From the NCBI GenBank assembly GCA_015665275.1, contig JADFAL010000007.1, forward strand, positions 168,150-210,841: a stretch of 42,692 nucleotides of DNA, given 5' to 3'. The position numbers and the translations under genes were made by a program. The notes below the pieces were generated by a model. That model saw only the letters and a program-made list of their open reading frames with translations. It was not told where the DNA came from and searched no databases. Position 1 is the stretch's first letter, and every line of letters starts with the position of its first letter. The DNA is from Flavobacteriales bacterium (lineage in GTDB: Bacteria; Bacteroidota; Bacteroidia; Flavobacteriales_D; Crocinitomicaceae). Positions 2,379-31,939 of the stretch are shown piece by piece.

Positions 2379-5300
2379 ATGAATACGATACTACGTTACA
2401 TCCTTGTTTTACTAGGATTTCTCTTCATTTCAGATGCCAATGCACAACGCGCAAAAGACGGTAGTTACACCGTTACTGGGGCAGCTGAGGTTCTTAATAC
2501 ATACACGAATCTTACGGTAAACGCAACGGCTGGAGCTACATCAATTTCAGTGGCAAACAATGCGATGACCGGAGGCGCGTTCGGAGGAACTCCACTTCAG
2601 CAAGGTGATTTGATCTTGATAGTTCAAATGCACGGAGCCACGGTGGATGTCAACTTCTTCCCCGTAGTCGCAGGTTGGGGAAGTTATACATGGCCACAAT
2701 CGTATTTTGATTCGGGGTTTGGTACAACTCCCGAAACATTTGGACAAGTAACGAATTACAATAACTCAGGACGGTATGAGCGTGTTGAGGTACTCAGCAC
2801 TTCTGGTGGAGGTACGATCAATCTTACGTGTGGTCTTACCTACAACTATACAGCAGCCGATGAAGTACAAATTGTTCGAATCCCGAGATTGGATGATTTG
2901 ACTGTGAACGGAGGGGCTGCCGTGGTTCCTGATATTTGGGATGGAACAACAGGAGGTGTTGTCGCTCTGGAGGTTGATGGAACTTTAACATTGAGCGCAG
3001 GGGGAACAATCACCGCTTCCGGATACGGTTTCCGCGGTGGACAATTAGATACTGATTTTGTTCCCGGTGCAGCCAATACAGGAGGACAGGGTAGTGACCG
3101 ATTCTTAGGTTCGCCTTCAGGATTTGAAGGTTCAGAAAAAGGAGAAAGCATCGGTGGGTACCACGTAGAATATGATTTAATTTACTCAAGATATGGAGTC
3201 TCTGGTATCGCCAATGGCGGTGGGGGAGGTGGATTCGTGAACTCCGGCGGTGGAGGTGGATCCAATGCTGAAGTAGGTGCTGGAGCATTCAATGGCCGAG
3301 GTAACCCCGTAGCAGGATATGCAGCGGCATATGGTCAGGATCCAACAATTACTGCATCCAGTGGTGCTGGACAAGGAGGATACTCACTTTCACAGAGCAA
3401 TCAAAATGCTGGTTTTACTGGACCAAATCAAGCCGCTTGGAGTGGTGATGGTCGTAAGAATGCTGGTGGTTGGGGAGGACATCCCTTGGCGTATGACGCT
3501 GGTCGCATCTTCTTTGGAGGAGGTGGAGGAGCCGGCGATCAAGATTCCGGTGAAGGTGGAGATGGTGGTCGCGGTGGCGGAATTGTCTACATCGTGAATT
3601 ACGGAACTGTTACCGGAAGTGGAGGCATTCAAGCAAATGGAGGTGCAGGAGAGAACTCAAACCCATTAAATCTACCTCTAGGATTTAACGCTTATCGTGG
3701 AAACGATGGTGCCGGTGGAGGTGGAGGAGCAGGAACGGTTTACATCGAAAATGCTGCTGCAATCCCAGGAACGGTTTCTATTGACGCAATCGGTGGAGAT
3801 GGAGGTGATCAAAACCTTCAAGTAAATGCATTTCAAGCAAACGAGGCTGGAGGTCCTGGTGGAGCGGGTTCTGGAGGTATTGTTAGATACTCAAGCGGAA
3901 CTCCAACAACTTCGGTGATTTCCGGAAACGCTGGAACCACTACCTCAACACAATTGTCAGAATTCCCTCCGAACGGAGCAACGAATGGTTCCGCGGGAGA
4001 TACTTTGACAACTGCACCGTACTATGATTTAATTCCAAATGACGTAACGATCTGTGCTGGACAAATGGCCTCGCCAAGTGTTACAGTGAATGGCTCATAT
4101 ACAGGAACATTGAATTGGTACACCGTTCAGTATGGCGGATCTCCAATCGCAGGTCAAACCAACCAATTATCATACAACGTTTCTCCGGGAACAACAACTA
4201 CCTACTGGGTGGGTGTTTGTCCGGGTACATTCCGAGTACCAGTTGTGGTAACGGTTTTGGCATCACCGAACTTAGTGATTACGGATCCAGCGGCAGTGTG
4301 TGCGCCGGCAACTGTTGATATTACATTACCAGCAGTTACAGCTGGAAGTGATGTAGGAACCTTAACGTATTGGCAAGATAATGGAGCTACTATTTCCCAG
4401 CTGACACCAACGAGTGTAGGCGGAGGTTGGCACTACATTCAATTGGATGTTGGTGGTGGATGTACTGCTCTCGATTCTGTTTTCGTTACAATCAATCCAC
4501 TGGATGACGCTTCGTTTAGTTATTCATCAGCGACGTATTGTTCGGATGCAGCGGACCCAACACCTACGGTAACAGGACTTGGTGGAGGAACTTTTAGTTC
4601 AACTCCAGGACTTTCCATTAATACAAGCACAGGTCAAATTGATGTTTCTGCTTCAACGCCAGGAGCGTACACGGTAACGTATACAACATCGGGGCCATGT
4701 CCAAACTCAAGCAATCAGTCAGTAACAATTTATGCCGCTCCGACTATTTCTGGCCCTACTTCTGTATGTCCGGGTGCAACAATTGCATTAACTGGAACTG
4801 GCACTCCAGATGGTACTACTCCTTGGACGTCTTCCAATACGAGTGCAGCCACAGTAGATAATTTAGGAAACGTAACAGGGTTTGCTGTAGGGGCAACAAC
4901 AATCACCTATCTAGATGCCAATGGTTGTTCAAATACGTATGTAGTAAATGTATCCGCAGCTCCAGTTTTGGATCCTGTGGCAAATGTTACCGGATGTGAT
5001 AGCATTCAATTGGCCACGATCACAGGAACTGGATTAACAGGAAACGAAGCATATTACTCTGGAACAGGTGGTACAGGAACAATGTTTACTGCAGGCGATT
5101 GGATTTCTTCTTCCATGACGATGTACGTAAATGATCTTAGTAATCCTTGTACGGTTGAGCAATCATTCACCATTACAATTAATGTTTCTCCGACTATTTC
5201 CGGTCCAACATCCGTTTGTCCTGGAGCTACCATTGCATTATCAGGAACAGGTACACCCGATGGAACTACTCCATGGACGTCTTCCAATACGAGTGCAGCC

Positions 5301-8300
5301 ACAGTAGATAATTTAGGAAACGTAACTGGGGTTGCAGTAGGAGCAACAACAATCACGTACCTAGACGCCAATGGTTGTTCAAACACGTATGTTGTGAATG
5401 TATCCGCGGCACCAGTTTTGGATCCTGTAGCGAACATTACTGGATGTGATAGCATTCAATTGGCTACGATCACTGGAACAGCTTTGACAGGAAACGAAGC
5501 GTATTACTCAGGAACGGGTGGTACGGGAACCATGTATACTGCAGGCGATTGGATTTCTTCCTCCATGACGATGTACGTGAATGATCTTAGCAATCCTTGT
5601 ACAGTTGAGCAATCATTTACAATTACAATAAATGTTTCACCGACCATTTCGGGTCCAACTTCTGTTTGTCCAGGAGCCACCATTGCATTATCAGGAACAG
5701 GTACACCCGATGGAACGACACCGTGGACGTCTTCCAATACGAGTGCAGCAACAGTAGATAATTTAGGGAACGTAACAGGAGTAGCGGTTGGAACTACAAC
5801 CATTACCTATTTGGATGCGAATGGGTGTTCAGATACGTATGTAATCAATGTCTCTTCCGCACCAGTATTGGATCCCGTAGCGAACATTACTGGATGTGAT
5901 AGCATTCAATTGGCTCCTATCACAGGAACAGGTTTGACAGGAAACGAAGCATATTACTCAGGAATGGGTGGTACGGGAACCATGTATACTGCAGGCGATT
6001 GGATTTCTTCCTCCATGACGATGTACGTGAATGATCTTAGCAATCCTTGTACGGTTGAGCAGTCATTCACCATTACCATAAATGTTTCACCGACTATTTC
6101 TGGTCCAACCTCGGTTTGCCCGGGAGCTACTATTGCATTATCAGGAACAGGTACTCCGGATGGAACTACACCATGGGCGTCTTCCAATACCGGAGTTGCG
6201 ACTGTGGATAATTTGGGGAACGTAACGGGGGTTGTGCCCGGAGGAACTACAATTACGTATTTAGATGCAAACGGATGTTCGGGAACTTACGCGGTAACTG
6301 TCATTGCGGCTCCAGATATTACGCCAATCCCTAATTTGTCCGATTGTGATAGTATTCAATTACCTGCGATCGCTGGAACAAATTTATCTGGTAGTCAGGC
6401 CTACTATGATGGAATGGGAGGTACAGGAACAATTTACACCGCAGGCCAATGGATTTCCTCGAGTATTACATTGTATGCCTACGATATTAGCGGAGGTTGT
6501 TTTGATGAAGAAACCTTCAATGTAGTTATCGAAACAATTCCAACGGCAGCATTCACAGCTAATCCAGTTACAGGGTGTGTAATTCCACAAGTAGTATTCT
6601 TTACCGACAACTCAACATTACCGGATACCTGGTTCTGGGATTTTGGAAATGGCAATACATCAGCACTTCAAAACCCAGTACATTCGTATACATCGTTTGG
6701 GGTATTTACAGTAACATTAACGGTGACTGATACCATTAATGGATGTTCAGATCAGGCAACAACAACAATTACAGTTACGTCGCCGCCGGTATTAGATCCA
6801 CAGGCGAATATTTCTGGATGTGATAGTATTCAGCTCCCAGTTATTACCGGAACTGGATTAACAGGGAACGAAGCGTACTATTCAGGAACAGGAGGAACGG
6901 GAACTCAATATGCTGCTGGAGATTGGATTACTGCATCCATGACCATGTATATTAACGATCTCAGCAATCCATGTACGGCAGAGCAATCGTTCGCAATATC
7001 TGTGAACCCTTCACCAACGATTTCGGGACCAACATCCGTTTGTGCCGGAGCATCAATTGCATTAGTAGGTACAGGAACACCTGACGGTACTACTCCTTGG
7101 ACTTCATCCAATACTGGAGTTGCGACGGTAGATAATCTCGGAAACGTTACGGGTGTTTCTGCCGGATCAACCACTATCATTTATTTGGATAATAACGGTT
7201 GTTCGGATACATACACTGTTTCGGTTATTGCTACGCCAATTCTGGATCCAATGGCTAATGTAACGGCATGTGATAGCGTTCAGTTGGCAACAATCACGGG
7301 TACCGGATTAACAGGAAATGAGTCTTATTATTCTGGAACGGGAGGAACTGGAACCGTTTACAGTGCAAGTGATTGGATTTCCTCTTCAATGACGATGTAC
7401 ATTAATGACTTAAGCAATGCTTGTACCGCAGAGCAGTCATTTAATATTACGATTAATGTTTCGCCAACCGTTTCAGGGCCAACTTCAGTTTGTCCGGGTG
7501 CAACGGCAGGGTTAACAGGAACAGGTACTCCTGATGGTACTACACCTTGGACGTCTTCAAATACAGGTGTGGCGACAGTTGACAATGCAGGAAACGTAAC
7601 GGGTATTGCAGCAGGAACATCGGACATTACCTACACAGACATCAATGGTTGTTCAAATACAGTAACGATTACTGTGAATGCAACGCCAACAATTTCAGGA
7701 AATGCTCCAATTTGTGTAGCCGCTACGAACACATTAACTGGTTCGGGAACTCCGGACGCAACAACACCTTGGACATCTTCAGATCCATCGGTAGCTACAA
7801 TTGATAATGCAGGTGTGGTTGCGGCGGTTGCAGCAGGAACAACGACAATCACATATTTAGATGCCAATGGATGTTCTACTACGGAAGTAGTAACAGTGAA
7901 TGCAGCTCCGAATCTTGTAATTACAGATCCGGTGGCAGTGTGTGATCCATTGACAGTGGATATAACCGATCCAGCTGTAACGGCGGGAAGTGATCCAGGA
8001 ACATTAACGTACTGGACGGATAACCTTGCAACAATAACACTTGCAACTCCGAACGCGGTAAATACCACAAACACGTATTACATCCAATTAGATGATGGTA
8101 ACTGTACCGCAATTCAGCCGGTAAACGTAACGGTGAATCCAGCGCCTACTATCGCGTTGACAGATCCCGCACCCGTTTGTGATCCTGCATTGGTAGATTT
8201 GACTGATGCAGCGGTAACTACAGGTAGTGATCCGGGAACATTCACATACTTTGACGGAATGGGTACAGCGGTTCCAACTCCTACAGCAGTGGGATCAGGA

Positions 8301-9137
8301 ATGTACTTTATTACACTTACTGATGGTAATGGTTGTCAGAGTGCTGGGCAGGTTACAGCGACTGTGAATCCAACGCCGAACTTAGTTGTAACAGATCCAT
8401 CTCCGGTATGTGAGCCAAATACAGTTGATTTAAATGCTGCGATTGTGACGGCAGGAAGTGATCCGGGAACCTTGACGTATTGGATAGACGCGGGAGCAAC
8501 AGCAACATTATCTACACCAACCGGAGTATTGACGGGTATGTACTACATTCAGTTGGAGGATGGGAACGGTTGTTCTTCGATTGCATCGGTTAACGCGACG
8601 GTAGATCCGTTGGATGATGCATCGTTCTTCTTGAATCCTACATGTGATGGGGCAACCGCTACCTTAACGGGAACAGCGGGAGGAACCTTCTCACTTTTAA
8701 CTGCGACATCTGCAACTATTGATCCGACAACAGGAACGGTTACAGGAGCTTCATACAATGAGGCGCTGGATATAGAATATGCAACTACGGGTATTTGTCC
8801 GAACAATTCTGTTGAGTTAGTTATCGTTGACGATTGTACACCGGAAGAGTTGATTATTCCAACGGCATTTACTCCGGGATCGGATGGTGCACATGATACG
8901 TGGGAAATCGTTGGACTGGATAATGTATATCCAAACAGTCGAGTAACTGTTTATAACCGATGGGGAAATAAGGTGTTTGAGCACAATGCAAGTTCAAGTG
9001 ACCCTTATAACAATAACATGTGGGATGGAACGTTTAACGGCGCACAGTTGCCGGCAGCCTCTTATTACTACATTATCGAAACAAACGATGCGAGTAGTAC
9101 GGAGAAGTATGAAGGAACCGTAACGATCTTACAATAA
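2379..9137 (+). CDS. Giant secreted repeat protein with PKD and gliding/T9SS C-terminal domain
   Basis: This 2252-residue protein begins with a Sec signal peptide (about residues 1-22, ending ANAQ). The N-terminal third contains an extremely Gly-rich segment, about residues 205-510, with runs such as NGGGGGGFVNSGGGGGSN. From about residue 788 it alternates two modules: an Ig/BIG2-like unit (SGPTSVCPG ... TYLDANGCS) and a second unit (VLDPVANITGCDSIQL ... EQSFTITIN). Together they form 150-residue repeats. A PKD domain (FWDFGNGNTS ... VHSYTSFGVF) occupies about 1388-1470. More diverged modules follow. The last 90 residues, from TAFTPGSDG at 2162 to YEGTVTIL, are the CHU_C/gliding-motility C-terminal domain, the usual type IX secretion signal in Bacteroidota. 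The likely role is a surface adhesin or motility filament. Regular Cys pairs in each module suggest disulfides. Confidence 0.93.
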   Translation: MNTILRYILVLLGFLFISDANAQRAKDGSYTVTGAAEVLNTYTNLTVNATAGATSISVANNAMTGGAFGGTPLQQGDLILIVQMHGATVDVNFFPVVAGWGSYTWPQSYFDSGFGTTPETFGQVTNYNNSGRYERVEVLSTSGGGTINLTCGLTYNYTAADEVQIVRIPRLDDLTVNGGAAVVPDIWDGTTGGVVALEVDGTLTLSAGGTITASGYGFRGGQLDTDFVPGAANTGGQGSDRFLGSPSGFEGSEKGESIGGYHVEYDLIYSRYGVSGIANGGGGGGFVNSGGGGGSNAEVGAGAFNGRGNPVAGYAAAYGQDPTITASSGAGQGGYSLSQSNQNAGFTGPNQAAWSGDGRKNAGGWGGHPLAYDAGRIFFGGGGGAGDQDSGEGGDGGRGGGIVYIVNYGTVTGSGGIQANGGAGENSNPLNLPLGFNAYRGNDGAGGGGGAGTVYIENAAAIPGTVSIDAIGGDGGDQNLQVNAFQANEAGGPGGAGSGGIVRYSSGTPTTSVISGNAGTTTSTQLSEFPPNGATNGSAGDTLTTAPYYDLIPNDVTICAGQMASPSVTVNGSYTGTLNWYTVQYGGSPIAGQTNQLSYNVSPGTTTTYWVGVCPGTFRVPVVVTVLASPNLVITDPAAVCAPATVDITLPAVTAGSDVGTLTYWQDNGATISQLTPTSVGGGWHYIQLDVGGGCTALDSVFVTINPLDDASFSYSSATYCSDAADPTPTVTGLGGGTFSSTPGLSINTSTGQIDVSASTPGAYTVTYTTSGPCPNSSNQSVTIYAAPTISGPTSVCPGATIALTGTGTPDGTTPWTSSNTSAATVDNLGNVTGFAVGATTITYLDANGCSNTYVVNVSAAPVLDPVANVTGCDSIQLATITGTGLTGNEAYYSGTGGTGTMFTAGDWISSSMTMYVNDLSNPCTVEQSFTITINVSPTISGPTSVCPGATIALSGTGTPDGTTPWTSSNTSAATVDNLGNVTGVAVGATTITYLDANGCSNTYVVNVSAAPVLDPVANITGCDSIQLATITGTALTGNEAYYSGTGGTGTMYTAGDWISSSMTMYVNDLSNPCTVEQSFTITINVSPTISGPTSVCPGATIALSGTGTPDGTTPWTSSNTSAATVDNLGNVTGVAVGTTTITYLDANGCSDTYVINVSSAPVLDPVANITGCDSIQLAPITGTGLTGNEAYYSGMGGTGTMYTAGDWISSSMTMYVNDLSNPCTVEQSFTITINVSPTISGPTSVCPGATIALSGTGTPDGTTPWASSNTGVATVDNLGNVTGVVPGGTTITYLDANGCSGTYAVTVIAAPDITPIPNLSDCDSIQLPAIAGTNLSGSQAYYDGMGGTGTIYTAGQWISSSITLYAYDISGGCFDEETFNVVIETIPTAAFTANPVTGCVIPQVVFFTDNSTLPDTWFWDFGNGNTSALQNPVHSYTSFGVFTVTLTVTDTINGCSDQATTTITVTSPPVLDPQANISGCDSIQLPVITGTGLTGNEAYYSGTGGTGTQYAAGDWITASMTMYINDLSNPCTAEQSFAISVNPSPTISGPTSVCAGASIALVGTGTPDGTTPWTSSNTGVATVDNLGNVTGVSAGSTTIIYLDNNGCSDTYTVSVIATPILDPMANVTACDSVQLATITGTGLTGNESYYSGTGGTGTVYSASDWISSSMTMYINDLSNACTAEQSFNITINVSPTVSGPTSVCPGATAGLTGTGTPDGTTPWTSSNTGVATVDNAGNVTGIAAGTSDITYTDINGCSNTVTITVNATPTISGNAPICVAATNTLTGSGTPDATTPWTSSDPSVATIDNAGVVAAVAAGTTTITYLDANGCSTTEVVTVNAAPNLVITDPVAVCDPLTVDITDPAVTAGSDPGTLTYWTDNLATITLATPNAVNTTNTYYIQLDDGNCTAIQPVNVTVNPAPTIALTDPAPVCDPALVDLTDAAVTTGSDPGTFTYFDGMGTAVPTPTAVGSGMYFITLTDGNGCQSAGQVTATVNPTPNLVVTDPSPVCEPNTVDLNAAIVTAGSDPGTLTYWIDAGATATLSTPTGVLTGMYYIQLEDGNGCSSIASVNATVDPLDDASFFLNPTCDGATATLTGTAGGTFSLLTATSATIDPTTGTVTGASYNEALDIEYATTGICPNNSVELVIVDDCTPEELIIPTAFTPGSDGAHDTWEIVGLDNVYPNSRVTVYNRWGNKVFEHNASSSDPYNNNMWDGTFNGAQLPAASYYYIIETNDASSTEKYEGTVTILQ
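4741..6540 (+). repeat. Four tandem 450-bp coding repeats
   Basis: Units start at 4741, 5191, 5641 and 6091, an exact 450-bp (150-codon) period. The first three are nearly identical at the nucleotide level, including silent positions (for example the shared GGCGATTGGATTTCTTC block near 5095, 5545 and 5995). The fourth diverges in its second half. Each encodes one Ig/BIG2-like module plus one CDSIQL module. Further diverged copies, interrupted by the PKD domain, follow at about 6784-7460 and 7464-7680. Confidence 0.95.
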
Positions 9138-9179: not shown

Positions 9180-9761
9180 ATGAATGAGACTTTGAACACG
9201 GTTGCACAAAAGATTAGAGCACTCTTTAAAGAGACGCATGATGACTTAGTGAATAACGAAGACCGTAAAATTCTCGTTTCTCATAATGGAACCTTCTCAC
9301 AAGATCTTGTTGGTTCACTGTCGAATGGAGTAGAGGAATTATTAGTTTCCAAAGGTGATAAACGCATCGTAATTAAGCGCATGTTCTCCATTTTATTGGA
9401 AGGTCTTCAAAATATCCGTCTGCATGGCAAGGAGGATGAAAAAGAAGAACAGTTGGCGTTTCTCATTATTGCAGCCGACGAAGATTCGTACAAGATTTAT
9501 ATGGCCAACATAGTAACGAATTCTGAAGTTCAGAAGATTCAATCGTACCTAGATGAATTGAACGACTTAGACGAAGCTGTTCTGAAGGAAAAATACCTCT
9601 CGGTCTTATCCAATGAATTTATAAGTGCTAAGGGAGGCGCGGGTCTAGGGTTGATCACAACTCGAATGAAGTCAGGGCCACTTGGAAGTCGTTTTGCAGA
9701 ACTAAATGATGAGCAAACGCTCTTCGTTCTCGAAGTAACGTTGCCTCGAATCAAGCGCTAA
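9180..9761 (+). CDS. SiaB-family (DUF6272) GHKL-type protein kinase
   Basis: This 193-residue protein resembles the SiaB/DUF6272 kinases, which have a histidine-kinase-like ATP-binding fold and phosphorylate a SpoIIAA-like partner. An N-box, EGLQNIRLHG (residues 74-83), and a Gly-rich ATP lid, GGAGLGL (152-158), are visible. There is no sensor or transmembrane part, so it is a soluble kinase. In Pseudomonas the SiaB partner SiaC and a diguanylate cyclase are neighbours. Here neither is adjacent, although a STAS-domain protein lies at 15179. The stop codon abuts the GTG of the next gene, which implies translational coupling to the histone-deacetylase-family enzyme. Family assignment is from recognised motifs, not a search. 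Confidence 0.78.
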   Translation: MNETLNTVAQKIRALFKETHDDLVNNEDRKILVSHNGTFSQDLVGSLSNGVEELLVSKGDKRIVIKRMFSILLEGLQNIRLHGKEDEKEEQLAFLIIAADEDSYKIYMANIVTNSEVQKIQSYLDELNDLDEAVLKEKYLSVLSNEFISAKGGAGLGLITTRMKSGPLGSRFAELNDEQTLFVLEVTLPRIKR

Positions 9762-10664
9762 GTGCTTCAGGTTTCCTACAACGATATATACGTCCATCCG
9801 CTTCCGGAGAACCATCGATTTCCCATGGAAAAGTATGAGTTGTTAATTCAGCAACTTTTATACGAAGGAACTATTTCAGAGGAACAGGTGTTTAGCCCAG
9901 AATCAATCGATCTCCAAGATGTCTTAAAAGTACACGATAGCGATTATCTGAAACGATTGCAGCGATTGGAAATTTCCCCGAAAGAACAACGCGTTTCCGG
10001 ATTCGTTCATAACCAACGACTGATCAGCAGAGAACTAATGATCATGGGGGGGACGAGAGCATGTGCGGAACGTGTTCTCAACGGAGGAGCGGCGATGAAC
10101 ATTGCAGGTGGAACACATCATGCGTTTACTAATCGCGGAGAAGGGTTTTGTTTATTGAACGATCAGGCAATTGCCGCAAAATGGCTGTTGGATGCTACAA
10201 ATGTCCAAAACATTCTTATTGTTGATTTGGACGTGCATCAAGGAAACGGTACTGCGGAAATATTTAGAGACACATCAGAAGTGTTTACCTTCAGCATGCA
10301 CGGAAAGAATAATTATCCATTAAAAAAAGAAACTTCAAATCTCGATGTGGAATTGGAAGACGCCATTGGCGATACTGATTATTTGTACAAATTGGAGGCT
10401 TCGCTCGATAGTATTTTGAAAGAAGTAACTCCTGACTTTGTATTCTATCAATGTGGCGTTGATGTTGTTGCAACCGATAAATTGGGAAAGTTAGGAATGA
10501 CTCGAAACGGTTGTAAGCGCAGAGATGAGATTGTTTTTGAGACGGTGAAACAGTTAGAGGTTCCGGTGGTGTGCACCATGGGAGGAGGCTACAGTCCGCA
10601 TATAAAAGACATTGTAGAGGCGCATGCAAATACCTATCGAGTAGCTCAGAATATTCTTTTCTAG
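9762..10664 (+). CDS. Histone deacetylase superfamily (AcuC/acetylpolyamine-type) hydrolase
   Basis: This 300-residue zinc-dependent amidohydrolase removes acetyl or other acyl groups from lysine side chains or small amines; the substrate is not predictable here. Catalytic motifs are present: GGTHHAF with the His pair at 119-120, DLDVHQGNGT with zinc ligands D157 and H159, FSMHGKNNYP, the QCGVDV region with the third Asp ligand, and CTMGGGYSP near the C-terminus with the family Gly-Gly-Gly-Tyr. The start is GTG, immediately after the stop of the kinase gene with zero spacing. The pair is probably one operon under the promoter at 9145. Confidence 0.93.
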   Translation: MLQVSYNDIYVHPLPENHRFPMEKYELLIQQLLYEGTISEEQVFSPESIDLQDVLKVHDSDYLKRLQRLEISPKEQRVSGFVHNQRLISRELMIMGGTRACAERVLNGGAAMNIAGGTHHAFTNRGEGFCLLNDQAIAAKWLLDATNVQNILIVDLDVHQGNGTAEIFRDTSEVFTFSMHGKNNYPLKKETSNLDVELEDAIGDTDYLYKLEASLDSILKEVTPDFVFYQCGVDVVATDKLGKLGMTRNGCKRRDEIVFETVKQLEVPVVCTMGGGYSPHIKDIVEAHANTYRVAQNILF

Positions 10665-10694
10665 TTACACTGAAGATCGAATCAATTTTTGCCT

Positions 10695-10702
10695 TATATT
10701 TG
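10695..10702 (+). promoter_or_regulatory. -7 box for the 51-residue Cys/Lys-rich protein
   Basis: TATATTTG matches TAnnTTTG exactly. It ends 19 bases before the ATG at 10722. The small gene therefore has its own promoter and is not just a tail of the deacetylase transcript. Confidence 0.55.
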
Positions 10703-10721
10703 TTTAGAATTAATCTAAATA

Positions 10722-10877
10722 ATGAGATTTTCGGACATACAAACGACTCAGAATACAGCCAATCAAGATGCTCAATTCTTTGTGCCTTGCTCGAATGAAT
10801 TGTGCGGAAAGAAAAAGAAGTGCTGTAAAAAGTACAAGAAAAAGGCTTTGCATTGTAAGAAGTGTCCGAAGCTGTAA
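10722..10877 (+). CDS. 51-residue Cys- and Lys-rich small protein
   Basis: An ATG-initiated 51-codon frame follows an exact -7 box. The N-terminal half (residues 1-22) is polar and uncharged-to-acidic. The C-terminal half carries six Cys (23, 28, 34, 35, 45, 48) among about 15 Lys, including the segment GKKKKCCKKYKKK and a final HCKKCPKL. There is no signal peptide. The spacing C-x4-C-x5-CC-x9-C-x2-C suggests a metal- or nucleic-acid-binding knuckle, which is inference. I recall similar short CCKKYKKK-type proteins in Flavobacteriales but cannot confirm this. The amino-acid bias and promoter make it unlikely to be a chance ORF. Confidence 0.7.
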   Translation: MRFSDIQTTQNTANQDAQFFVPCSNELCGKKKKCCKKYKKKALHCKKCPKL

Positions 10878-26362: not shown

Positions 26363-26398
26363 ATGAATGAGGAAAGGATTAGGCGTTCTCCGGGATGA
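26363..26398 (+). CDS. 11-codon upstream ORF overlapping the rocD start
   Basis: ATG at 26363 opens an 11-codon frame, [11 protein letters not shown], whose TGA (26396-26398) overlaps the ATG at 26395 as ATGA. Three of its 11 codons are Arg (AGG, AGG, CGT). It lies inside the predicted leader. It could couple or tune translation of the aminotransferase gene, but such short frames also arise by chance. If the real rocD start is ATG 26425 or 26437, the overlap would not matter. Confidence 0.3.
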
Positions 26399-27711
26399 AC
26401 GCACATTTCAAAACATCATTAAACATGAATGTTACTATGGATAAATTGACATCAAAAGACTTGATGCAAATGGAAGACAAGCACGGAGCTCACAACTATC
26501 ATCCGCTCGGTGTTGTTTTGGAACGAGGAGAAGGCGTTCACGTATGGGACGTTGAAGGGAAGAAGTACTACGATTTCTTGTCAGCATACTCTGCAGTAAA
26601 TCAAGGACATTGCCATCCAAAAATTGTGGATGCAATGGTAGAACAAGCAAAAACGTTGACATTAACGTCACGTGCTTTCCACAACGACGCACTAGGACCT
26701 TACGAGAAATTCGTTACTGAGTATTTTGGATACGACAAAGTATTGCCGATGAATACAGGGGCGGAAGCCGTAGAAACTGCAATTAAATTGTGTCGTAAAT
26801 GGGGATACGAAGTAAAACGAGTTCCTGAAAATACAGCACAAATTATCGTTTGTGATAACAACTTCCACGGAAGAACAACAACAATTGTTTCGTTCTCTAA
26901 CGACCCTGTGGCAAGCAAAAATTTCGGACCGTATACACCAGGATTTATTCGAATTCCTTACAACGATACAGCAGCTCTGGAAGATGCTTTGAAGAACAAC
27001 GATAACGTTGTAGGATTTTTAGTAGAGCCCATTCAAGGGGAGGCTGGTGTATTTGTTCCAGACGCAGGATATATTGAAAAAGCACAACAATTGTGTTCAG
27101 AAGCTGGAGCCTTATTCATTGCGGATGAGGTACAAACTGGAATTGCAAGAACAGGTTCATTGTTGGCTGTTTGTGGTGATTGTAGCTGTGGAAACACATG
27201 TGAGAAAGATCCAAATTCTTACGTGAGGGCAGATATCTTAATTCTTGGAAAAGCAATTTCAGGAGGAGCGTATCCAGTTTCGGCTGTGTTAGCGGATAAC
27301 GAAATTATGAACGTGATTAAGCCAGGACAGCACGGTTCCACTTTCGGAGGGAATCCAGTTGCGGCGAAGGTAGCGATTGCGGCTTTGGAAGTAGTTCGTG
27401 ATGAAGAATTGGCAGCGAATGCACGTCGTTTGGGTGAACTTTTCCGCAATGAAATGCAGCGTATTATCGACAACACAGATCTTGTAGTGAAAGTACGTGG
27501 TCGCGGTCTATTGAATGCGATTATTGTGAATGATACAGAGGAGAGCGATACGGCTTGGAATCTTTGTGTCGCATTAATGGAAAATGGTCTCTTGGCTAAA
27601 CCGACACACGGAAACATTATTCGATTTGCACCACCGTTGGTAATGACGGAAACGCAATTGATGGAATGTGTAGCAATCATCGAAAAAACGATTAACGCTT
27701 TCGAGAAGTAG
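26395..27711 (+). CDS. rocD: Ornithine aminotransferase
   Basis: This PLP enzyme transfers the delta-amino group of ornithine to 2-oxoglutarate, giving glutamate semialdehyde (arginine/proline metabolism). The class III aminotransferase pattern is clear: [40 protein letters not shown]-like [25 protein letters not shown] and the PLP lysine K286 in [12 protein letters not shown]. There is a Cys-rich insert ([13 protein letters not shown]) between the Asp motif and the Lys, about residues 260-275. Counted from 26395 the protein is 438 residues. ATG 26425 or 26437 would better match family N-termini, so the first 10-14 residues are uncertain. Confidence 0.95.
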
Positions 27712-27865: not shown

Positions 27866-28408
27866 ATGAAAAAGTCCAGCGAAGAAAATCGTTCTACTTC
27901 TCATGCAGTTGCCAATTCAGAGGTAGTGCAAAATAATTCTGTCAGCCAATTGTTTGGCGATGATGAGCTTCAAGCTAAGTTTATTGGAACGCAATTGAAG
28001 GGAGATGATGAACTTCAAGGCAAATTCAAGACAACGCAATTAAAAGGCGATGATGAACTTCAAGGTAAGTTCAAGACAATCCAACGACAGGAGAATAAAA
28101 CTGGGATGCCAGACAATCTTATGAGTGGTATTGAATCTATTTCGGGAGTGGATGTTTCCGATATACGTGTACATTACAATTCGTCAAAACCAGCGCAAAT
28201 GAACGCACATGCGTATGCGCAAGGAACGAATATTCATATTGCTCCTAGTCAAGAACAGCATTTGCCACATGAGGCATGGCATACTGTACAACAAAAACAG
28301 GGACGCGTACAACCAACGACTTCTGTGAATGGAACGCCTGTGAATGACAATAAGAGTTTAGAAAGCGAGGCGGATGTGATGGGAGCTAAGGCCGCTTCAT
28401 TTAAGTAA
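27866..28408 (+). CDS. DUF4157 (eCIS core domain) protein, minimal form
   Basis: This 180-residue protein has three parts. Residues 1-30 are polar. Residues 31-75 are three near-identical 15-residue repeats (GDDELQGKFKTTQLK type). Residues about 80-175 are the DUF4157/eCIS core domain, with SGVDVSDIRVHYNSS, AYAQGTNIHIAPSQ and the zinc-protease-like LPHEAWHTVQQ (H135, E136, H139). A downstream Glu in LESEADVMG (E166 or E168) is the likely third ligand. DUF4157 is strongly associated with extracellular contractile injection systems, where it usually sits at the front of long toxin or cargo proteins. Here the protein ends right after the core, with no effector domain. There is no signal peptide. 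It converges on the operon below, which encodes a Pvc16-type protein. Confidence 0.87.
   Translation: MKKSSEENRSTSHAVANSEVVQNNSVSQLFGDDELQAKFIGTQLKGDDELQGKFKTTQLKGDDELQGKFKTIQRQENKTGMPDNLMSGIESISGVDVSDIRVHYNSSKPAQMNAHAYAQGTNIHIAPSQEQHLPHEAWHTVQQKQGRVQPTTSVNGTPVNDNKSLESEADVMGAKAASFK
27956..28090 (+). repeat. Three 45-bp tandem repeats inside the DUF4157 gene
   Basis: Units at 27956-28000, 28001-28045 and 28046-28090 encode GDDELQAKFIGTQLK and two near copies. The second and third units are closer to each other than to the first. The same kind of LQGKF repeats precedes the DUF4157 domain in related flavobacterial proteins, as I recall, so a conserved function such as a loading signal is possible. 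Confidence 0.9.
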
Positions 28409-28430
28409 GAACTGGGGTTTTCTTATAATT

Positions 28431-29407
28431 TCATTCGTCAAGAAGAATAACGATGGACTCATATTTAATGTTTTCCTTATTAAATATTGCGTTCATGAAT
28501 TGAGCAAATTCGTCGTTGAGAATTTTCTCAGTCGCAAATTCAAAACCTTCTTGATACGTCATTTCCCCATTTGAATCGTTTTGATAATACTCTTTGCTGC
28601 GCATGATAAGCCAATAGATGCAGATGGATTGTTCGATGTATCCCTTTTTGTAATATTGAAATTGTTCGAAATGAGATAGCGCCATACGGTTCTTCTGTTC
28701 TTGAAATGGATTTTGAATTCGGGTGAAATCATAGTCCAATCGGACTCCAAAATTGGCGCGTATTCAGCGTTATTTGGATCGACAAGAATTTGAATCGCTC
28801 CATGCGCATTGGCATTGCCCTTCAAGTGGATGAATTTCCGTTCCGTTTCGTCAACCGTAAGCACATAGATGCCTTCGTCGAGGTTTTTCGTTTGAAGAAC
28901 TTGTTTATCTTGAACGGTTATGATAGCCTCCGTTCGATCCTCTTCAGTAAGAGATAAACGTATCAATTTCACTTCAGATTCTCCGGGCATTTCAATAGTC
29001 GTTGTTCCAATCAACTCCGTTTGATTTTCTTCTGAAACACGCTCTGCGGAATGGAGTATGGTAGCATCATCACTCGTGCTTGTTTTACTATTCGAGAAGA
29101 AGTACACTTGATTGTTCTCAGGAAGAAAATCAGTATAATTCGCCCAATAATTGTCGTTTAATTGGAGAGTGAACCACATTTCCATAGGTTCTTGAATTCG
29201 ATCGGAGAGTACCGATTGGCCATCCACCAATTCAGCTTCTGCACCAACTTCCAACGTCCCGCGATTCATTCTAGAGATCATCCGGTAGTTGTTCATCAAA
29301 GCGTGCGTATCAGAAGACGGCCGAATAGCTATTGAAAGATCCGGACCTCCCTGATAGAAGTCATGAGCAATACTTAATCGAAATAATGTACCGTAATGAA
29401 TTGTCAT
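28431..29407 (-). pseudogene. Frameshifted last gene of the Pvc16-type operon
   Basis: Two minus-strand frames make one protein. The first runs from ATG 29407 and is protein-like to about P218 (28754). The second is open from 28763 and protein-like from NFGVRLDYDFTRIQ to the stop at 28431. Beyond 28754 the first frame continues 64 codons as unconvincing sequence. One extra base near 28753 (for example an added A, giving EYAPNFGVRLDYDF) restores a single frame of about 325 residues. No canonical slippery heptamer is present, so programmed frameshifting is unlikely. A real mutation or a sequencing error fits better. The function was not recognised. It starts with ATGA overlap after the DUF4255 gene, so it belongs to that operon. 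It has no signal peptide and looks like a soluble, beta-rich protein followed by a helical C-terminal part. Confidence 0.75.
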
Positions 29408-29988
29408 GCGTCTTTCTTTTTTATATCGATGTCCATTGTTCGAATTGTTTCCAGATGACCCTGAACGGAAGCATCCTCGATTAACACCGCACGAACTCTA
29501 TACACTATTGAGGGCATGTATTTGGCTCCAAGCGTTGCCCATAAATTGTTTTTCGTGTTCGAGTCCAAGTGCAACATTTCGAACTGGAGTTTTTCTATTC
29601 CTCTATCTGCCAGCGTAGGCGTGTTCTGTTCTGTAAATGCAGGTTTTGAATGAAAGAATTGAATCACGGCTGAGGTGAATTTCAAAGCTTCATTGTAATT
29701 GCTCGGATTGAAATACGCGAAGAACCCAACCTGAAGGTTTAGATGCATATTTGGACGCGCCACGTATTCCCCAAACTGCGAATTGCGGTATTGTCCGGGT
29801 CCATTGGTGTACACTTCTTCCGAAATATCTAACAGAGAGAAAATCATTTTGTTTTTTTCTTCTGTGGCTACAGATCCATCCTGATTTATCAGATAAGAGA
29901 GCGCGACCATATTTTCGGTAAGGTCGAATCGCAACTTCAAATACTGATTCAGTTGCTCTGAAATGGTATGTAGTGCTTCATCAATCAT
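29404..29988 (-). CDS. DUF4255 / Pvc16-type contractile tail-terminator protein
   Basis: This 194-residue cytoplasmic protein matches the Bacteroidota DUF4255 pattern: an N-terminal helix, ALHTISEQLNQYLKLRF, then VALSYLINQDGSVATEEKNK, the core strand MIFSLLDISEEV, PNMHLNLQVGFFAYF, a helix ending AVIQFFHSK, and LWATLGAKYMPSIVYRVRAV. In eCIS such as PVC and Afp, the Pvc16/Afp16 protein caps the inner tube and sheath and sets particle length. This is the only recognisable structural eCIS component in the window. It overlaps its neighbours on both sides by 4 bases, so it is co-translated with a small membrane protein upstream and the broken gene downstream. Confidence 0.82.
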   Translation of the reverse strand: MIDEALHTISEQLNQYLKLRFDLTENMVALSYLINQDGSVATEEKNKMIFSLLDISEEVYTNGPGQYRNSQFGEYVARPNMHLNLQVGFFAYFNPSNYNEALKFTSAVIQFFHSKPAFTEQNTPTLADRGIEKLQFEMLHLDSNTKNNLWATLGAKYMPSIVYRVRAVLIEDASVQGHLETIRTMDIDIKKKDA

Positions 29989-30260
29989 TCTTCGTCGTCT
30001 TCGTTTTCATCTTCTTTTTGTAGCAGTACTTTTACGGCCGATCTTGTGAATCGCATGAGAAGAATCCCAATAAAACACACAATCACCATGAGCAAATAGA
30101 GTAGGATCACCTGATCGTCTATGCCTTCTACAAATGCGTCGTAATCATCAATGAGAATATCCACGAATGCCAAACCAACCAGCCCTAAAGGGAAAGCGAG
30201 AAGAGCTGCAGAAATAATCCACATGAATTCAGTTGCCAGAAGTTTTTCTAGAAATTTCAT
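29985..30260 (-). CDS. Two-helix small membrane protein of the Pvc16-type operon
   Basis: The 91-residue protein has two transmembrane helices, about residues 12-35 and 50-70, separated by an acidic loop (DILIDDYDAFVEGIDD). It ends in an acidic tail, KEDENEDDEE. The family was not recognised. Four-base ATGA-type overlaps link it to the genes on both sides, so it is expressed together with the DUF4255 protein. A role as a membrane platform for the system is conceivable but unproven. Confidence 0.75.
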   Translation of the reverse strand: MKFLEKLLATEFMWIISAALLAFPLGLVGLAFVDILIDDYDAFVEGIDDQVILLYLLMVIVCFIGILLMRFTRSAVKVLLQKEDENEDDEE

Positions 30261-30580
30261 GGGACATCTTTATTTACGCGTAAAAAGGACTTCCAACTCA
30301 ATGCCGAAATCACAATAACTCCAATAACCATTATGCTGTTCAAAGGTTTTTTCACTCGTTCGCTTGAAAGCAAATCCAACTTATGATCTTCGATGTAGCT
30401 ATCTGAGTGGAACACAAAACTTGCAATGAACAAAAGCATAAACATCAACGCGAGGAAAATGCCGAGTACTTTCAAATAGATTCGGAATTCGAGAATCAAC
30501 AAGCGATCGAAGATAGAACTGGATGTAAGTGCAAGGAAAGCTCCAAGCACAACGAAAAACAATACAATACACAAGATCAC
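30257..30580 (-). CDS. Three-helix small membrane protein of the Pvc16-type operon
   Basis: The 107-residue protein has hydrophobic helices at about residues 1-20, 35-57 and 82-97, and a short charged tail. The start is GTG at 30578-30580 on the minus strand, 15 bases after the stop of the GH18-like gene. The family was not recognised. It overlaps the following small membrane protein gene by 4 bases. The two small membrane proteins look like a co-expressed pair. Confidence 0.72.
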   Translation of the reverse strand: MILCIVLFFVVLGAFLALTSSSIFDRLLILEFRIYLKVLGIFLALMFMLLFIASFVFHSDSYIEDHKLDLLSSERVKKPLNSIMVIGVIVISALSWKSFLRVNKDVP

Positions 30581-30595
30581 AATCTGAACTTCCGA

Positions 30596-31939
30596 TTACT
30601 TCAAAATTTTCCGGACGTCTGCATTGGCTGCCGCTTCAGAAAGTGGAGGCTTGAACTCTGGAATGGAGTCATTTACTACTTCATTGAGTCCGTGATTTTT
30701 CAGCACATTGACTTCATTGGCAAGAAGATCCCAGAATTGTGTCTCTCCCGCGTCATATCCGAGGGTCCACATACCAATTCCAGCTAATTTCTGGCCATTT
30801 ACCCAGTTGTATTTGTCTTTTAGTGCTTGAACGTTGTCGAAGAAAACGACATATCTTTTCCCATCCGATTTACGGGTATACGTGCATTGAGCAGTAGCTG
30901 CAACTTCGTCATACACTACGGAATCCTGTGCCTCTGAATCTTCTATGTCCTGCAAGATTTCGTTAATTGGAGGGTTTCCGTAGAACGAGTATTGGATTTT
31001 GCTTTTTCCCGAATCTTTGATTTCCCACATGGCTCCGTAATAAGGAAATGCGACGATTAATTTGTTTCTTGGAACACCATAACTCAAGTATTCCGTAACG
31101 CCTTGTTGGACATTCAGTTCTCCCCATTCCTTGCTGTGTTTAAGCGGGGAGACCGGTCCTGGTTTGTAGCTACCACTGTAGTAATAATTATACCCAAGCA
31201 TTACGAACTGGTCGGCGTATTTATTGATGGTTTTAAGATCGTATTTGTTCTGACCTCTTGCTGGTGGAATCGCAATTACTAGAGCTTTGTCGAATACGTC
31301 TAGCGATTTTTTCATGCGTTCAACAAGTAGGTTGAACTCATCTTTCAAATTGAAAGGCATTCCTTCGAAACTGATCACCAATCCCTCAACATTCGGTCGG
31401 TCTGTAACCAAGTCACTCACAAATTTGATGCACTGCGTTCGATTTTCTTCACTTCTCAGCAGTTCTGCAATTGCATTGCTGTCATCACAAGTAAGTGCCA
31501 ATAACATGTTGCAAGAATCAGCGTCGGTTTCGTGTATAAGTCCTTGAACACTGGATGAGAACCAATCGCCATAATCATATTCGATAAAACCATCATCCCG
31601 CAGGACGATCCGGCACCCATGGTAAGCAACAGAAGTCAAAGATTCGAAATGGTAATCCTGGTAGGCGCTCCCAATGAAATCAGCGTGCCAACCGAAAACC
31701 TGCATCTTGTAATCTGGGTTGTAAATTTTTGAAGAATCAGTTGTGGCTTTTGTCTCCAACTGATCTTTCATAGCAGAGCCAAGCTCCATGATTTGATCAA
31801 AGAGGGTGTAGACCAATCGCTTGTCATCTTTTTTCAAAGCATCATTCCCGTTTTGAGAGAATGAAACTTCAGGCAAGATGAATAGCATTGCTACCATCAA
31901 CAGGGCGCGAATAGCGTTATATGTGGTGTGTGCCGACAC
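30596..31939 (-). CDS. Exported GH18-like protein with degenerate catalytic motif
   Basis: This 447-residue protein has a Sec signal peptide (about residues 1-29, ending VSFSQ) and a GH18 (chitinase/spore-hydrolase-like) TIM barrel: FGWHADFIGSAYQDYHFESL, LVIAIPPARGQNKYDL, FVMLGYNYYYSGSY, KLIVAFPYYGAMWE and LAGIGMWTLGYDAGE. The GH18 catalytic signature DGxDxDxE appears as EGLVISFE (residues 185-192). The general-acid Glu E192 is kept but the three Asp are E, V and S. The protein may therefore be weakly active or a carbohydrate-binding relative. The start is GTG at 31937-31939. It is the first gene of the leftward operon that includes the DUF4255 protein. Confidence 0.82.
   Translation of the reverse strand: MSAHTTYNAIRALLMVAMLFILPEVSFSQNGNDALKKDDKRLVYTLFDQIMELGSAMKDQLETKATTDSSKIYNPDYKMQVFGWHADFIGSAYQDYHFESLTSVAYHGCRIVLRDDGFIEYDYGDWFSSSVQGLIHETDADSCNMLLALTCDDSNAIAELLRSEENRTQCIKFVSDLVTDRPNVEGLVISFEGMPFNLKDEFNLLVERMKKSLDVFDKALVIAIPPARGQNKYDLKTINKYADQFVMLGYNYYYSGSYKPGPVSPLKHSKEWGELNVQQGVTEYLSYGVPRNKLIVAFPYYGAMWEIKDSGKSKIQYSFYGNPPINEILQDIEDSEAQDSVVYDEVAATAQCTYTRKSDGKRYVVFFDNVQALKDKYNWVNGQKLAGIGMWTLGYDAGETQFWDLLANEVNVLKNHGLNEVVNDSIPEFKPPLSEAAANADVRKILK

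Follow-up and report, generated by a model that had tools for sequence, protein, structure and literature searches.

The six open reading frames at positions 27866-31939 of the window, the 42,692-nucleotide stretch of Flavobacteriales DNA analysed here, are very probably the recent remnant of a complete extracellular contractile injection system (eCIS) that was lost in this lineage. The locus represents neither a novel eCIS nor one that is split or linked to the membrane. An initial annotation of the same DNA had considered a split system, a membrane-linked variant and a remnant side by side; direct synteny with an intact locus in a sister genome now supports the last of these. Set against the intact sister locus, it shows gene by gene how an eCIS can be lost in nature, and it cautions against taking the pair DUF4157 and DUF4255 as proof of a functional eCIS. 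PMC8213781 contains none of the words 'gene loss', 'degenerat', 'pseudogene' or 'remnant', and a targeted literature search for decayed eCIS loci was also empty.

All six frames described in the initial annotation are present (Table 1). The leftward genes overlap by 4 bases at three of their four junctions (29404-29407, 29985-29988 and 30257-30260), as expected from the description of these genes as linked mainly in this way; the fourth, between the GH18 gene and 30257-30580, is a 15-base gap. The assignments to DUF4157 (eCIS core) and DUF4255 (Pvc16), the latter for 29404-29988, and the GH18-like character of the exported protein were all upheld, with the PF13699, PF14065 and PF00704 matches exceeding their curated cut-offs. 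Profile searches likewise agreed that sheath, tube, spike and ATPase genes are absent from the six frames.

Table 1. Features of the locus and its left flank, in window coordinates.
Feature	Position	Strand	Evidence
Truncated DUF4157/eCIS_core cargo gene, 180 aa	27866..28408	+	PF13699, E 2.6e-10
Scar, 269 bp	28393..28661		blastn and tblastx boundaries
Truncated cap-adaptor gene, Alg16B/All3326 type	28559..29407	-	7adz_1A, E 3e-9; 7b5i_AB, E 5.3e-6
Pvc16/Alg16A-type cap (tail terminator), intact frame	29404..29988	-	Pvc16_N PF14065 (DUF4255), E 4.7e-30
Small membrane protein, 91 aa, intact frame	29985..30260	-	G025 counterpart of 93 aa
Severed C-terminal transmembrane part of GH18 gene	30257..30580	-	Single open frame in G025, L037, L039, L052
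In-frame stop codon between GH18 domain and membrane anchor	30596..30598	-	Frame reading of junction
Exported GH18-fold protein, now without anchor	30596..31939	-	Glyco_hydro_18 PF00704, E 6.5e-30
Flanking aminotransferase gene	26395..27711	+	Syntenic with G025 C55:23510-24826; protein 91.3% identical; blastn block

On contig C55 of a same-genus genome, G025, these genes occur in a matching context and enclose a complete eCIS. Window positions 31279-28662 are collinear with C55 87-2710, and positions 28392-25931 with C55 22789-25289; further collinear blocks extend leftward to about position 5 kb of the window, and the flanking aminotransferase gene, which we take to be of the ornithine-aminotransferase type, is syntenic with C55 and thus serves as an anchor for the comparison. 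Contig C55 begins inside the GH18 gene, and the comparison covers that gene and the DNA leftward of it. Between the two blocks, ~20,078 bp of the sister contig (C55:2711-22788) are replaced in the window by 269 bp. The intact locus encodes a GH18 protein with membrane anchor, a small membrane protein, cap, cap adaptor, sheath (very close to the solved sheath structure 9r9h), two gp19-type tube proteins, a LysM/CIS_tube protein, spike, PAAR, gp25, baseplate, tape measure, AAA+ ATPase and a convergent DUF4157 cargo gene. The two loci share gene order and chromosomal context, and their cap proteins are 84.5% identical over 194 columns, whereas the sister locus is complete, has GH18 and anchor as a single gene and encodes a cargo protein of 417 aa. 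Since the same order adjoins a complete eCIS there, the joint presence of DUF4157 and DUF4255 is not chance, as the initial annotation had argued. The window thus has the collinear flank, on the left of the locus, and the truncated edge genes around a deletion that characterise a remnant.

Both edge genes lose their 3' ends into the same 269-bp segment. The cargo protein, 180 aa against 417 aa in G025, retains three leader repeats and an eCIS_core domain with its HExxH motif (HEAWH); its C-terminal payload part is lost from the gene and the frame ends just past the core domain, DNA homology to G025 stopping at 28392 and the last ~five codons deriving from the scar. The opposite frame, 28559-29407, whose product is a cap adaptor, keeps ~249 codons homologous to the 344-aa G025 protein before scar sequence replaces its end. 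The scar has a G+C content of 33% versus 42% for the whole window. A translated search of 60 genomes, including the window's own, returned only the scar itself and matches at E 0.02 or worse, and tblastx and blastn searches of six relatives' contigs gave nothing beyond E 0.02 or worse. We propose that a complete eCIS operon stood at this site before the window's species and its sister diverged. In the window's lineage, a single event or several in succession would then have deleted ~20 kb between a point inside the cap-adaptor gene and a point inside the cargo gene, where 269 bp of other sequence now stand. Without tube or sheath, the residual cap and cargo leader presumably could neither make nor fill a particle; probably nothing functional is left, and the locus would be drifting towards loss.

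The structural genes sought by family or protein are absent from the assembly as a whole. Searches for gp19 tube, CIS_tube, the G025 sheath protein, tape measure (CIS_TMP) and gp25 gave no matches, versus four, two, three, three and two, respectively, in G025. A Phage_sheath_1 search was also empty, a result weak on its own as the profile scores even the G025 sheath below cut-off, and the DNA of C55:2711-20000 is unmatched in the genome, a comparison that has no positive control and whose query ends where the ATPase gene begins. Among the components sought, the genome holds the cap (DUF4255), as its only Pvc16_N gene, and lacks sheath, tube genes, tape measure and gp25. That the machine is merely split, with its structural genes elsewhere in the genome, is scarcely credible given these empty searches and their positive control; a second eCIS_core gene does occur on contig C58 (17.9 kb) and would suit such an arrangement, but tblastx at E 1e-8 linked this contig to none of the six relatives' contigs.

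The same results bear on whether the organism does have the eCIS, with the assembler having skipped it or fused sequence from a deletion strain with that from an intact strain. With 115 contigs and 2.11% contamination, the source assembly is probably a metagenome bin, in which such an error could arise. However, neither sheath, tube, CIS_tube, tape measure nor gp25 is found anywhere in it, the scar is non-homologous and of differing G+C, and an unrelated in-frame stop in the GH18 gene suggests independent decay. We regard an artefact of this kind, or a deletion confined to some strains of a mixed population, as unlikely, and the eCIS was probably lost in the living organism. The assembly is 96.12% complete, and a missing contig with eCIS genes would be possible though unlikely.

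The stop in the GH18 gene is separate from the ~20-kb replacement. GH18 domain and anchor form one open frame in G025 and in three other relatives (L037, L039 and L052), and the GTG start of 30257-30580 is only formal. The in-frame stop thus makes a gene fragment of one of the two membrane proteins described initially, while the other, 29985-30260, is a real gene; the six frames in two convergent units exist, but the ancestral locus had five genes. The small membrane protein has two predicted helices and an acidic tail, is 80.2% identical to its 93-aa counterpart in G025 and belongs to no Pfam family above its cut-off. The GH18 protein has a hydrophobic N terminus. Active GH18 enzymes carry the motif DxxDxDxE, with the catalytic Glu and an Asp two residues before it; the corresponding stretch in the window is S-F-E, in which the Glu is kept and the Asp is replaced by Ser, and the complete motif is absent.

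The rate of change of the retained genes does not exceed that in G025, and the loss therefore looks recent. Relative-rate counts on the window and G025 branches were 7 v 12 for the cap, 24 v 23 for the cap adaptor, 4 v 2 for the small membrane protein, 20 v 23 for GH18 and 7 v 7 for the anchor piece, with no significant difference in a test that is weak because identity to the outgroup proteins is only about one third. Cap dN is 0.097, and dN/dS is uninformative because synonymous sites are saturated (dS is undefined for 6 of the 21 pairs listed). As judged from these sequences, the retained genes show no sign of long neutral decay. Open frames and an unchanged rate in the cap and small membrane protein would also be compatible with these genes still being in use.

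One form of such use would be domestication, in which the cap, GH18 and small membrane protein outlived the machine by taking on a new role in the envelope. The intact cap and small membrane protein frames, the dN of the cap with its saturated synonymous sites, the lack of a rate increase and two congeners, L050 and L056, in which the cap gene has conserved small neighbours but no sheath are in its favour. Yet the GH18 anchor and the ends of cap adaptor and cargo are lost, the truncated set recurs in none of the 37 relatives' cap loci examined, and the rate test, with its distant outgroups, is weak. We consider domestication very unlikely, and a recent remnant remains our preferred account.

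Of the relatives' loci, 35 of 37 have a sheath gene after the cap gene, as do 76 of 80 sampled loci, which makes a cap gene without a sheath exceptional. The other features of the window's locus are widespread. Other Bacteroidota share the order GH18, small membrane protein, cap, cap adaptor, sheath, and a GH18 protein with C-terminal membrane helices, often without the catalytic glutamate, adjoins the cap gene in 67 of the 80 sampled loci, mostly from Bacteroidota. The initial annotation had looked to structural genes elsewhere in the genome and to a conserved gene order; the genes sought are absent from the assembly, whereas the order is conserved. A GH18 gene and a small membrane protein gene preceding the cap gene are thus a common layout in this eCIS branch, not the peculiarity of a membrane-linked variant. 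In the divergently transcribed GH18 branch (Chitinophaga, Mucilaginibacter, Pedobacter and others) the catalytic Glu is lost in 39 of 39 counted members, while the co-directional branch (Aquimarina, Tenacibaculum and others) usually keeps it and regularly has the small membrane protein alongside. This association of Glu loss with orientation is not statistical evidence, as the tree holds one orientation change and a single independent pair. Among relatives whose motif can be read, those nearest to the window (L088, L089 and L090) also have no intact Asp-x-Glu pair, which, at the level of sequence, speaks against hydrolysis in this sub-branch.

We tentatively suggest, with somewhat less than even confidence, that a dedicated inner-membrane protein, its GH18 barrel facing the envelope and its C terminus forming membrane helices, is a regular partner of the cap in this Bacteroidota-dominated eCIS branch: the Glu-less divergent proteins might be glycan-binding pseudo-enzymes that dock, sense or gate the particle at the cell wall, the Glu-keeping co-directional ones might resemble a hydrolase plus holin-like release pair, and the window might show the fate of such a partner, its anchor lost once the machine was gone. 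A holin-plus-endolysin reading of GH18 and small membrane protein was rejected, given the non-statistical association, the missing Asp-x-Glu pairs in the window's sub-branch and the small protein's lack of a Pfam family. The comparison points to wide conservation of the membrane-bound GH18 (often pseudo-GH18) partner, and we found no description of it in the literature searched on contractile injection systems with GH18, chitinase or glycosyl hydrolase, in which two Pseudoalteromonas papers name both contractile injection and GH18. With this gene, the question of how particles contact the producer's envelope, or get out through it, becomes testable.

The GH18 barrel is common to the eCIS partner and to GH18 chitinases, chitinase-like lectins and SleL-type spore enzymes, from which the partner differs in its C-terminal membrane helices, its eCIS linkage and the frequent loss of the catalytic Glu. 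The thylakoid-anchored system of Anabaena (7b5i), a cyanobacterial system reportedly described as an assembled structure, has in its cap All3327, the best fold match of the window cap, and its cap adaptor All3326 homologues of the window genes. AlgoCIS of Algoriphagus machipongonensis, in whose main text the words chitinase, hydrolase and transmembrane do not appear, has a short single-domain cap (Alg16A), a separate cap adaptor (Alg16B) and DUF4157 cargo (Cgo1/Cgo2) (PMC8894135). The window shares this arrangement of short cap, separate adaptor and DUF4157 cargo, and its cap and cap adaptor match 7adz chains; AlgoCIS, however, is complete and makes particles (PMC8894135), whereas the window retains only a cap, a truncated adaptor and a truncated cargo.

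Relatives of the cap protein (the Pvc16/DUF4255 tail terminator) were found in 28 of 199 genomes, the window's own counted, and by far the nearest outside the window, at 86% identity, lies on contig C55 of G025, a genome of the same genus. The two sites share collinear DNA in two blocks (window 31279-28662 with C55 87-2710, and window 28392-25931 with C55 22789-25289), and synteny extends leftward in more blocks, to ~5 kb of the window. Between the inner edges of these blocks, C55 holds ~20.1 kb coding for an eCIS (see the table), the window counterpart of which is a 269-bp scar with a G+C content of 33%, vs 42% for the window, and with no convincing relative in sequence searches of the relatives' contigs and of 60 genomes, its own included. 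A very close match to the G025 sheath (E 1.6e-191) is the solved sheath 9r9h, on which no paper was found in the literature available. Elsewhere in the window, a 2252-aa frame has many internally matching blocks against C55 38.5-43.9 kb and, judged by sequence, is a large repetitive protein conserved in this sister genome.

Features of the window, of the G025 eCIS and of compared loci
Feature	Location	Remarks
Large repetitive protein (predicted)	window 2379-9137	2252 aa
Cargo (DUF4157/eCIS_core)	window 27866-28408(+)	
Scar	window 28393-28661	269 bp
Cap adaptor	window 28559-29407(-)	
Cap	window 29404-29988(-)	
Small membrane protein	window 29985-30260(-)	91 aa
Severed GH18 membrane end	window 30257-30580(-)	
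GH18	window 30596-31939(-)	
Remainder of cap adaptor	G025, 20.1-kb segment	
Sheath	G025, 20.1-kb segment; L034 3018-4589	Phage_sheath_1C above cut-off, Phage_sheath_1 below cut-off
Two gp19 tube proteins	G025, 20.1-kb segment	
CIS_tube/LysM protein	G025, 20.1-kb segment	
Spike	G025, 20.1-kb segment	Phage_base_V
PAAR	G025, 20.1-kb segment	
gp25	G025, 20.1-kb segment	
Baseplate-J protein	G025, 20.1-kb segment	
Proteins of 259 aa and 1051 aa	G025, 20.1-kb segment	both without Pfam match
CIS tape-measure protein	G025, 20.1-kb segment	1088 aa
AAA+-type ATPase	G025, 20.1-kb segment	named from Walker A (GPPGTGKT) and Walker B motifs in frame
309-aa frame, likely lipoprotein type	G025, 20.1-kb segment	without Pfam match
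C-terminal part of DUF4157 cargo gene	G025, 20.1-kb segment	gene product 417 aa
Second eCIS_core gene of window's genome, contig C58	L002 790-2475	561 aa; whole contig (L071) 17.9 kb
Pvc16 cap, sheath absent nearby	L056 (G022:C27), locus 9444-10762	cap 184-188 aa
Pvc16 cap, sheath absent nearby	L050 (G032:C282), locus 4275-5410	cap 184-188 aa

Three window genes are broken. The cargo frame ends directly after its eCIS_core domain, at 180 aa vs 417 in G025, and the cap adaptor retains ~249 codons of a 344-aa protein, its end consisting of scar sequence. The GH18 domain and the membrane segment that follows it form a single open frame in G025 and in three further loci (L037, L039 and L052), whereas an in-frame stop parts them in the window; what the initial annotation took for the second of two small membrane proteins beside the cap is therefore the severed GH18 C terminus, while the other, the 91-aa gene, stands. 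The frames of that gene and of the cap are uninterrupted. The suggestion that the locus could be a remnant is supported by the intact G025 locus, the collinear edges and the truncated genes. The cargo leader carries three tandem 15-residue repeats starting GDDELQ (residues 31, 46 and 61) before the core domain.

Compared as proteins with their G025 counterparts, the cap and the small membrane protein are 84.5% and 80.2% identical, the kept parts of the cap adaptor and cargo 67.5% and 77.8%, and the GH18 overlap and its severed end 59.2% and 62.6%; 15 neighbouring control genes (match covering >80%, <1000 aa) span 46-97%. Changes are split about equally between the two branches in all five pieces tested, against distant outgroups, and dN/dS is a rough guide only, because synonymous sites are saturated. 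Far heavier decay would be expected had these genes been unconstrained since the split from G025, so that either the loss was recent or something is still used; as three of the five ancestral genes are already broken, a recent loss of the eCIS in the window's lineage is favoured over continued use.

The genome to which the window belongs is assembled in 115 contigs that total 3.64 Mb, with a completeness of 96.12%. In it, searches for gp19 tube, CIS_tube, tape measure and gp25, and with the G025 sheath protein as query, gave no match; the same searches of G025 gave 4, 2, 3, 2 and 3, respectively, lying on C55 and on a second eCIS on contig C19. A Phage_sheath_1 profile, a weaker test than the G025 sheath query, also had no match in the window's genome, nor did 17.3 kb of the G025 eCIS as a DNA query, a search run without a positive control. 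The sole other eCIS family match found there was on contig C58, which carries a second eCIS_core gene; at E 1e-8, tblastx matched this contig to none of the eCIS contigs compared. The product of the gene has a long acidic stretch rich in glutamine and methionine.

The cap search among relatives gave 39 places, two of which were set aside: that of the window itself and G106, where the match covers 82 residues within a 2085-aa frame. A sheath gene lies downstream of the cap in 35 of the 37 loci examined. The two with no sheath nearby, L050 and L056, belong to the same genus, come from genomes with a sheath match elsewhere, and have in common another small gene neighbourhood, possibly an orphan cap gene kept separately. 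The cap is flanked there by an 89-119 aa protein, which we take to be a small carboxypeptidase-regulatory-like one, and by a peptide of 76-77 aa that is rich in lysine and arginine and apparently secreted. At L048, L049 and L053, the eCIS operon includes, downstream of the cap, three genes that are sheath-like and one additional tube-like gene. In the wider contig collection, a sheath follows the cap in 76 of the best 80 of 248 loci (cap frame picked up only in a second pass in five of the 80); of the four others, three contigs end too soon (L090, L105, L111), and L149 has a spike gene after the cap, at the contig edge.

This collection also contradicts the earlier impression that the window layout is unusual: in 67 of the best 80 of 248 loci (27 co-directional, 40 divergent), a sample biased by seeding with caps from five GH18-bearing loci, a GH18 gene with C-terminal membrane helices occurs upstream of the cap, no more than three genes away. 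All 39 members scanned from these 67 have a Pfam GH18 match. GH18 was absent by profile in 13 of the 80, some cut by contig ends; among these 13, a membrane protein of about the same size, without a label, is present at L148 and L155, and L152, L157 and L159 are labelled as coming from other phyla. Among the relatives' loci, GH18 adjoins the cap in 4 of 37, by a less sensitive single-sequence search. In the cases first called from the best 80 of 248, a small membrane gene accompanies GH18 in 23 of 24 co-directional vs 2 of 39 divergent loci.

The catalytic Glu is present in 17 of 22 full-length co-directional members and in 0 of 39 divergent ones (best 80 of 248), a count without the four loci recovered later and without two co-directional members truncated at a contig end. 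The motif is S-F-E in the window, and V-F-E (L088, Roseivirga pacifica), D-F-S (L089) and V-L-K (L090) in its nearest named relatives. On a cap tree of 74 rows, which omits 7 of the 80 loci, orientation shows a single switch and the Glu state no fewer than three; only one independent pair remains, and the link between orientation and catalysis is therefore without statistical support. From a simple hydropathy scan, the GH18 partner would be a membrane-held, envelope-facing barrel; it may have begun as a cell-wall hydrolase that served to release particles, and may have turned repeatedly into a non-catalytic glycan binder. No description of a GH18 partner turned up in searches of the literature available. 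The remnant alone is of modest interest; this conserved membrane partner is the part worth following.

DUF4157 is described as an eCIS core domain that is fused with toxins or lies next to them, and DUF4255 as the tail terminator (PMC8213781). A cap, a cap adaptor and a DUF4157 cargo are described in AlgoCIS, where deletion of the adaptor gave mis-assembled particles with empty tubes (PMC8894135). By this analogy, a particle with a broken cap adaptor would probably be impaired too. With an intact sister locus for comparison, the window locus is well documented as what a deletion, probably a recent one, left of a machine of known type.
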